Assembly (NCBI RefSeq): GCF_003003995.1
Contig: NZ_PVWF01000005.1
Span: 1-64,000 of the forward strand
From: Pleurocapsa sp. CCALA 161
GTDB taxonomy: Bacteria > Cyanobacteriota > Cyanobacteriia > Cyanobacteriales > Xenococcaceae
Direction of reading: 5' to 3'
Length of the DNA stretch: 64,000 bases
Numbering within the stretch: the first letter of the stretch is position 1; the number at the start of each line of letters is the position of its first letter. The notes under the pieces are model-generated. The model saw nothing but the letters and a program-made list of their open reading frames with translations, was not told the DNA's origin and searched no databases. Both the position numbers and the translations under genes were made by a program. This document shows positions 7,896 to 62,543 of this stretch, piece after piece.

Positions 7896-8022
7896 TATAG
7901 CAGTACTGTTTGATTCATGAAACTACATTGATTGGTTTTTAGGTAGTAGGTAGTAGGTAGTAGGTAGTAGGTAGTAAGTAGTAGGTAGTAGAAATTTTTC
8001 ATTTCATTTAGGATTGCTATAT
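7895..8022. repeat. Dispersed element copy A: ATATAGC/GCTATAT ends around a heptamer tandem repeat
   Basis: ATATAGC (7895-7901) and GCTATAT (8016-8022) bracket 128 bp. Inside, 7941-7991 consists of seven and a bit copies of the heptamer AGGTAGT, one of them altered to AAGTAGT. This fits the short tandemly repeated repetitive (STRR) sequences of cyanobacteria. The element fills the gap between two convergent genes and supplies the last codons of the metallophosphoesterase. Confidence 0.65.
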
Positions 8023-17087: not shown

Positions 17088-17108
17088 AAGTCAGAAGTCA
17101 GAAGTCAC
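17088..17108. repeat. Short heptamer tandem repeat (AAGTCAG x3)
   Basis: Three copies of AAGTCAG, the last ending in C, begin just after the preceding stop codon. It is an STRR-type repeat with a different unit from those at 7941 and 62191. Confidence 0.55.
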
Positions 17109-32403: not shown

Positions 32404-32426
32404 ATAACCATAGCCGTAAAAAGTTA

Positions 32427-32470
32427 GCGGCGCGTTTTGAGTATGAAGATTCACACTCAAAAGCCGCCGC
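32427..32470. terminator. Strong GC-rich hairpin between convergent rnhB and DUF1997 gene
   Basis: Left arm GCGGCGCGTTTTGAGT (32427-32442) and right arm ACTCAAAAGCCGCCGC (32455-32470) pair at 14 of 16 positions around a 12-nt loop. On the minus strand it is followed by TAACTTTTTA, so it can stop transcription from both sides. Confidence 0.7.
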
Positions 32471-32509
32471 AGATTAGGATAAGTTTAGTTAACTGTTCGT
32501 AGGTAGTAA

Positions 32510-32539
32510 ATGTCCTAACTTGAGTAGGTATTGCTATAT
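32510..32539 (+). repeat. Dispersed element copy C, end module
   Basis: ATGTCCTAAC (32510-32519), then 13 nt, then GCTATAT (32533-32539). The same 10-13-7 arrangement occurs inverted at 62142-62171. A single GTAGGTAGTA unit lies just before it. Confidence 0.5.
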
Positions 32540-62137: not shown

Positions 62138-62190
62138 ACCAATATAGCGGTGCAAGATTAGGTTAGGACATATTAAAGTTATTTGCTCAT

Positions 62191-62232
62191 AAGTAACAAG
62201 TAACAAGTAACGAGTAACAAGTAACAAGTAAC
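62191..62232. repeat. Heptamer tandem repeat (AAGTAAC x6)
   Basis: Six tandem 7-bp units, five AAGTAAC and one GAGTAAC, in the core of element copy B. Confidence 0.8.
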
Positions 62233-62246
62233 GATTGTCCTAATAT

Positions 62247-62420
62247 AACCTGAGTTCGGGTTAAGCAGATTAATTGGTGGAGATAGCTGTAAGCTCTAAG
62301 TTCTAAGCTAATAGCTTTTGAGATAGTTTGGATGGCAACTCTACTATGAAAGAAGAACGGAAAATAGTATTTTTTAAATACCTTCAAAATAAGGATTTGA
62401 GCTAATCCCGAACTCAGGTT
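62247..62420. mobile_element. 174-bp MITE-like element with 14-bp terminal inverted repeats and a 5-bp target duplication
   Basis: AACCTGAGTTCGGG (62247-62260) and CCCGAACTCAGGTT (62407-62420) are perfect inverted ends, extended by TTA/TAAT with a 1-nt slip. AATAT is repeated directly on both sides (62242-62246 and 62421-62425). There is no transposase gene inside; it would need a full-length relative elsewhere in the genome. Confidence 0.7.
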
Positions 62421-62543
62421 AATATAAGTGCGTATCGCTATACTGTTCAAAAGTGCGATTTCTGTTTTAGACTTCTCCTAAAGGAAGGATTTATACTTTT
62501 CTGAGTTAAAAAATACCTAGGTTTGAGCTAATCTATCGAAATA

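Follow-up and report, generated by a model that had tools for sequence, protein, structure and literature searches.

A short TA-targeting element with IS630-type ends and a heptamer-array core in Pleurocapsa sp. CCALA 161 and related cyanobacteria

Here, we describe F1, a family of short dispersed elements of Pleurocapsa sp. CCALA 161. Taken as a whole, the evidence makes us highly confident that F1 is a non-autonomous MITE of the IS630/Tc1-mariner type, which targets TA and often has a heptamer array as its core. Its copies form a family and leave a duplicated TA, as seen from empty sites in relatives; an insertion sequence (IS) has the same ends; many copies contain heptamer arrays, and arrays change in place. 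F1 is probably mobilized by the enzyme of the larger mobile element with the same ends. The original prediction, which proposed a mobilizable element with inverted ends and a variable heptamer core, is thereby supported by the copies, the empty sites and the same-end IS.

In the mechanism that we propose, the 28-bp ends of F1, TA-[TAGC-N14-TTAGGACA...], are those of an IS630-type IS, whose transposase would most likely cut and paste F1 in trans into a TA and double it. The heptamer array (AAGTAAC or AGGTAGT, class RGTARYA) would move along with the element, and the jump of an array-bearing F1 would therefore seed a new array, usually in an intergenic position and for the most part downstream of one or both neighboring genes. 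After arrival, the array would lengthen, shorten and homogenize in place, most likely by replication slippage. Some free arrays may have originated by decay of the ends.

The F1 family in the window and beyond

The site that led to F1 lies near the right edge of the window, by which we mean the whole 64,000-nucleotide stretch of DNA analyzed. Its features are the following.

62143..62442, + strand: F1 MITE copy of subfamily A, TATAGC...GCTATA; with the nested MITE, it spans 300 bp
62143..62170, + strand: left terminal inverted repeat, TATAGC-N14-TTAGGACA, a module also found at the ends of the IS630-type IS
62191..62232, + strand: heptamer array, unit AAGTAAC, 6 units of which one is GAGTAAC (period-7 scan of the window)
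62242..62246, + strand: AATAT, left copy of the nested-MITE duplication (sequence reading)
62247..62420, no strand assigned: nested 174-bp MITE with inverted ends, 21-bp arms, TAACCTGAGTTCGGGTTAAGC (sequence reading)
62421..62425, + strand: AATAT, right copy of the nested-MITE duplication (sequence reading)
62426..62442, + strand: remainder of the right terminal inverted repeat, AAGTGCGTATCGCTATA (sequence reading and other copies)

The window site is a very short mobile element interrupted by a second one. The original prediction had rebuilt the site at 62142-62443 by removing the 174-bp MITE and one AATAT, and this can be seen directly in the sequence: joining 62236-62246 to 62426-62442 restores the right end, TGTCCTAATATAAGTGCGTATCGCTATA, and leaves an element of 121 bp from TATAGC to GCTATA inclusive. 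An intact F1 copy (L016) has neither the AATAT duplication nor the nested MITE, and an uninterrupted 107-bp copy at G000:C133:19086-19192 is near-identical to the MITE-free window copy except for array length. This 107-bp form consists of 103 bp plus the TA duplications. The 174-bp MITE is unrelated to F1 and struck the window copy later. This nested MITE has AACCTGAGTTCGGG ends, and a relative of it sits in another F1 element (L018) at another place.

Two further heptamer-bearing elements were found in the window.

32409..32538, + strand: second F1 copy, subfamily B, about 130 bp, with few heptamer units (GTAGGTAGTA); this is L046
32511..32538, - strand: terminal inverted repeat TATAGC-N14-TTAGGACA of the 32.5-kb copy (motif scan)
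7896..8021, + strand: F2 MITE copy, TATAGCAGTACTG...[AGGTAGT]n...AGGATTGCTATA, with a TA target and a heptamer core; the site is empty in G003
7940..7991, + strand: heptamer array of the F2 copy, unit AGGTAGT (period-7 scan of the window)

The original prediction had placed all three sites in one family, which is right for the 62-kb and 32.5-kb sites only. Its end module at 32511-32539 (- strand) matches the left end at 62 kb with 0 mismatches; it had overlooked that this module is the end of a whole element at about 32409-32538. In this element the first base has diverged (CATAGC), only one to two heptamer units are present, and a hairpin insert of about 44 bp lies near the left end. The site at 7896-8021 lacks the TTAGGACA module, and its likeness to F1 is limited to the terminal TATAGC/GCTATA and the presence of a heptamer core. 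It is a separate family of TA-target MITEs with a heptamer core, F2, with sister copies at L316, L317 and L321. The window also contains a short heptamer run of unit AAGTCAG at 17088-17107, with no TATAGC or GCTATA within 90 bp.

By itself, the window is weak evidence for the end motif, with 2 matches at up to 3 mismatches, a number also reached by 10 of 100 shuffles. In the home genome (G000; 5.37 Mb in 249 contigs), exact TATAGC-N14-TTAGGACA was matched 23 times, versus 0 for the reversed control. We then built a model, R1, from 11 F1 copies. Because the R1 searches scored part of the first-look candidates, the resulting copy counts are lower bounds: at least 38 matches in the home genome at E<=1 (150 of 3922 candidates scored) and at least 75 in G010 (97 candidates scored per genome). 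Across 40 genomes, the home genome among them, matches at E<=0.01 occurred in 22 of the 25 that belong to its family (f1) and in 0 of the 15 from elsewhere in the order. Further copies, on which the original prediction had staked its case, were thus found both in the genome, as exact ends, and in most relatives. Order and spacing of ends and array are kept among them, as opposed to the random placement that would have spoken against it, and lengths step by 7 bp.

Matches to R1 span 57-143 bp, and the element itself mostly measures about 90-120 bp, with 28-bp ends and no transposase gene. F1 is hence short, multi-copy, devoid of a transposase gene and bounded by terminal inverted repeats, as is expected of a MITE. 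Subfamilies A (AAGTAAC) and B (AGGTAGT) align end to end, the array being at the same position between conserved flanks. In G010, the exact end was matched 137 times versus 0 in the control; two sets of three identical copies sit there at different targets, which points to recent movement. A class-wide form of the end, TATAGC-N2-TAC-N9-TTAGGACA, occurred in 50 of 291 genomes and, among the matches listed, 0 times in controls.

We also placed 29 copies of the home genome relative to mechanically called ORFs, as opposed to annotated genes. None was inside an ORF of at least 100 aa; flanking ORFs were convergent for 9 copies, tandem for 16 and divergent for 1, and 3 copies were unassigned. This intergenic placement would fit selection against insertion in genes and promoters. 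At G000:C27:11337-11534 (L033, L042), two F1 elements lie directly head to tail, with the junction GCTATATATAGC. L009, a 114-bp element without heptamers, was first considered to hold a transposase reading into the end; this was rejected, the ORFs there being other genes.

Empty sites and insertion sequences with the same ends

The original prediction looked to empty sites and target duplications, and both were found. The home genome was compared with G002 and G003; G003 is a close relative that matches at the same positions as the MAG Hyellaceae cyanobacterium CSU_1_1 (reached via L090) and is presumably that genome. Three F1 sites (L036, L037 and L024) are cleanly empty in G003 with exactly one TA, and the F2 site of the window (7896-8021, L171) is empty in the same genome with one TA left. 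They come from a first set of 20 prepared sites, of which 17 were searched (L009, L002 and L007 were left out) and 9 aligned, one of them in two genomes; these 4 (3 F1 and 1 F2) are the clean ones. Outside the clean count are two sites that lack the element in G003 but whose TA has changed there, namely, the window F1 site (L183) and L026, as well as L028 (flank loss), L022 and L038 (no usable left-flank alignment), and the ambiguous alignments of L172 and of L036 in its second genome. The remaining 8 of the 17 matched by one flank or in separate pieces. Of these, L029 alone was read: the F1 copy is absent from G003, with one TA left and, beyond it, only a short right-hand match that differs after a few bases. 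Reciprocally, an F1 copy of G003 (L072) is missing from G000 and G002, with exactly one TA and a diverged right flank.

A second set of 11 sites gave two more clean cases with one TA, the F2 copy L316, empty in G003, and the F3 copy L315, empty in G002 and G003. For L315, the TA was read by eye from the sequences and match lengths; the program's alignment had misplaced it. L310, L319 and L320 were not among the sites aligned, L311 (a truncated copy) and L318 were not clean, L321 was shared with a different array length, and the free arrays L314, L312 and L323 had a mixed outcome. Empty sites thus have a single TA, versus a TA on both sides of the inserted copies, which defines the element as TAGC...GCTA and the TA as duplicated. 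Repeats of the flank beyond the TA are rare (at least 3 bp in at most three of 40 G010 copies). The target duplication of a MITE and the TA target of IS630/Tc1-mariner elements are therefore both seen at the empty sites of the MITE.

A transposase between the same ends, also looked for as a check on the original prediction, was found elsewhere in the genus and family, where a parent-type IS of about 1.03 kb has 28-bp ends like those of F1. In G006, the ends are paired at 1028 bp in 10 of the 17 loci scanned (18 matches), and IS with the same end layout measure 1051 bp in G008 (L251) and 1017 bp in G015 (L253). Pieces of their frame match HTH_Tnp_IS630 (PF01710) and DDE_3 (PF13358) above cut-offs, so that the IS has the HTH and DDE_3 of the IS630 type, which the MITE lacks. 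Indeed, MITE and IS have 28-35 bp in common at the ends and little else. F1 has its ends in common with an IS of the autonomous type, some copies of which may still be active. The parent copies that we read closely, L251 and L252, have shifted or disrupted frames. The frame of L251 shifts at an A-rich run, which would be as in IS that use frameshifting. In L252 of G006, the transposase frame is broken and a segment of about 70 bp is extra compared to L251. L252, L259, L262 and other loci of G006 make up ten IS copies of equal length (1028 bp), and with L252 disrupted, this looks as if broken copies had moved in trans. Overall, F1 has the testable features of a MITE and its partner IS those of IS630, with movement in trans being putative.

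The only IS relic recognized in the home genome, L014/L250, is decayed: an F1 end precedes a truncated start of an IS630-type transposase, with another inverted-repeat insert between them. The first 78 aa of this relic have relatives in 9 of 25 genomes. Among 50 DDE_3 loci scanned in G000, G010, G002 and G003 (30 from the search, among the matches listed, and 20 fetched), none was a parent IS with both modules as its own ends, and no parent was recognized in G010, the genome in which MITE activity seems most recent. This counts against our explanation of F1, as do the disrupted frames of L251 and L252 and the lack of a clear array in about half of the copies chosen by their ends. An IS of G010 with TATAGC ends was rejected as the parent, the TTAGGACA module being absent. 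At L216, L220, L224 and L227 of G010, we noted a 963-bp IS630-type element with TATAGCTAACTGA ends, similar in its terminal bases and without the TTAGGACA module. Of nine loci with the class-wide end, three were joined to the C terminus of a related transposase (66-71% aa identity) and six had no transposase match; the pairing test found no partner end at any of the nine.

Heptamer arrays inside and outside MITEs

Lag-7 periodicity was detected in 20 of 29 G000 copies, 20 of 26 copies from other genomes and all 40 distinct G010 copies, a sample found with a model that was itself built from heptamer copies. No other period from 4 to 12 was detected in any copy tested. In this set, L050 and L356 denote one G010 copy (hence 40 instead of 41), and L071 (= L357) was dropped. 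When copies were chosen by their ends alone, an array lay within 130 bp of the end in 9 of 18, i.e., about half had no clear array; the duplicates L003 and L017 and three matches without a locus (C200 and two window ends) were left out. Tandem 7-bp units, as in cyanobacterial STRR, are accordingly present in F1. Copy lengths in G010 follow the same step, with 5 copies of 99, 24 of 106, 7 of 113 and 1 of 120 bp (37 of 40), and 3 of 40 are off this series.

An F2 copy is also present in G002, where its array is shorter and a small insert is missing. Furthermore, one free-array locus has the unit AGGTAGT, GGGTAGT or GGGTAAT depending on the genome (L312, L330 and L341). Arrays thus change in place, and slippage is the likely cause of their change in length.

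To judge how many arrays ride MITEs, we searched the genome for (RGTARYA)x3, which gave 567 matches versus 47 for the reversed control, matches overlapping within long arrays. The first 100 of them, on contigs C7-C61, correspond to 27 arrays, 20 of which are interior. Both ends of one family were found at 7 of the 20 and one end at 1, while 7 of 2000 random window segments had both ends. By eye, four more are copies or remnants: the second array of L309, L311, L322 and the second array in the F2 copy L317; apart from the last, they comprise a truncated F3, part of an F1-B copy and an F1 right end. At the other 8, neither the test nor inspection by eye revealed an end or remnant of F1, F2 or F3. 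That some heptamer repeats are the cores of mobile elements, as originally suggested, is borne out by the 7 arrays with both ends; many arrays lie outside recognizable MITEs, and the data do not support extending the statement to all. The remaining 7 of the 27 arrays could not be judged, as they hit a contig edge (first bases of C11, C13, C21, C31, C32 and C57; end of C61), and long heptamer arrays seem to interrupt the assembly, which also makes the number of copies counted here a lower bound. The seemingly free array L310 and L324, L398 and L399 have, by eye and with differences, a common flank, CTAAATCCGTTTCAGATAGGTT / CTAAATCCGTTTCAGATAGGTTACTTAAAAAATTG, which suggests a possible further dispersed heptamer-carrying unit, F4.

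These free arrays bear on the reading in which the heptamer arrays are primary, i.e., spread or arise alone, with MITE ends landing beside them, or arise by slippage wherever non-coding DNA tolerates it. We regard this as a real possibility, albeit a doubtful one. It would account for the 8 of 20 interior arrays without ends, for one class of heptamers being common to free arrays and to three families whose ends differ, for a free array that is absent from G003 without a TA footprint (L314 versus L326), and for the locus whose unit differs from genome to genome in all three. However, empty sites lack the array and both ends together, with one TA remaining, the layout from end to array is conserved, and identical copies at different sites bear the same array. 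We thus favor F1 as a MITE that often carries its array along.

How far this extends beyond F1 can be asked from other families. F1, F2 and F3 differ in their interiors and, past the first bases, in their ends, and their heptamers are of one class. In G028, from another cyanobacterial family (f5), all 12 fetched copies of a MITE share the end TATAGCTGTACT-N8-TTAGGACA, with the left end as in F1, and 9 of 12 have a period-7 core whose unit, ACTCAGC, is different. The link between end module and heptamer core hence recurs with a different unit. Heptamer cores are now seen in at least four cases: F1 (AAGTAAC/AGGTAGT), F2 (AGGTAGT), F3 (AGTAACA) and the G028 MITE (ACTCAGC). It is conceivable, but in our view rather unlikely, that IS630-type TA-target MITEs are a main vehicle that seeds heptamer arrays in cyanobacteria, free arrays being mostly MITE cores with decayed ends. 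If so, the MITE core would repeatedly acquire or generate arrays, and transposition, hairpin structure and 7-bp slippage would be linked.

Alternatively, the inverted-end unit could be an immobile, conserved host hairpin with a regulatory or RNA role. Compared with shuffles, folding is much stronger in one copy (z -5.1) and moderately stronger in another (z -2.9), and none of the 29 copies lies inside an ORF. Inverted ends alone produce such folds, however, the same ends are found on an IS, and presence or absence among close relatives with TA duplication largely refutes this reading, which we hold to be very improbable, although the host may later have made use of the F1 unit. A REP/RAYT-like single-strand mechanism or an RNA intermediate, the latter reportedly proposed for the SDR elements of Nostoc, would fit the small size, palindromic ends and nested insertions but is hardly credible given the TA duplication and long inverted ends laid out identically to those of an IS630-type DDE element. 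Transposition as an IS630-type MITE thus remains our explanation of F1.

F1 among known repeats

Among the systems that we compared, RUP of Streptococcus pneumoniae is described as a 107-bp non-autonomous element whose ends resemble IS630-Spn1, with target duplication and a hypothesized transposition in trans (PMC3049150). RUP and F1 are therefore alike in size, IS630-type inverted ends, target duplication and proposed trans movement; by that description, as opposed to a comparison of end sequences, RUP is a simple repeat (PMC3049150), whereas F1 contains a heptamer array and belongs to cyanobacteria. The BrickBuilt MITE of Porphyromonas gingivalis, also compared by description rather than by end sequence, is like F1 in having a minisatellite, i.e., a tandem repeat, flanked by leader and tail, inverted ends and an intergenic location but has a 23-nt unit (PMC4596501). 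A same-end IS and empty sites, seen here for F1, are not named in the BrickBuilt abstract (PMC4596501). BOX of S. pneumoniae, as outlined in PMC3049150, is likewise bounded by inverted ends, duplicates its target and contains tandem modules in varying number; unlike F1, with its 7-bp units and IS630-type ends, it is modular (boxA-B-C) and likened to ISSpn2. By analogy, F1 would work like RUP/IS630-Spn1, with a tandem core as in BrickBuilt or BOX. Closer to hand, Nezha is a MITE of cyanobacteria for which movement by an ISNpu3-like IS has been proposed, and its descriptions, on which our comparison rests, mention no heptamer core in the passages concerned (PMC3049150, PMC10969869).

The heptanucleotide repeats of Calothrix and Nostoc resemble F1 arrays in being mostly intergenic and variable in unit and length (PMC4692102, PMC4679880), and tandem heptamers have served for fingerprinting cyanobacteria (PMC5088731). 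As far as these accounts go, heptamers in one study generally showed no tie to mobile elements (PMC4692102), and another considered that a mobile carrier might exist (PMC4679880). In contrast to the repeats of PMC4692102, generally unlinked to mobile elements, a share of the arrays studied here lies inside MITEs, some of them with empty sites. In the literature that we searched, mostly outside subscription papers, we found no description of heptamer arrays as the cores of cyanobacterial MITEs.

How heptamers come to occupy so many unrelated places has been a question, and F1 supplies one route by which they could spread. The ends and the TA target of this carrier are defined, close relatives provide empty sites, and an IS has the same ends; one can therefore trace copy by copy how heptamers spread and slip, and test this in an assay.

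The SDR elements of Nostoc, reportedly described by Elhai et al. in 2008, are said to be small dispersed repeats of 21-27 nt embedded in heptamers or minitransposons. F1, mostly about 90-120 bp long, is outside this unit size. SDR-like small inserts were seen inside arrays here; SDRs would be guests of the array, whereas F1 is its 100-bp carrier. Finally, hairpin-like repeats of about 40-50 bp lie, guest-like, inside or beside the heptamer arrays of MITEs at about 32427-32470 of the window and at L034, L043, L384, L317 and L321.
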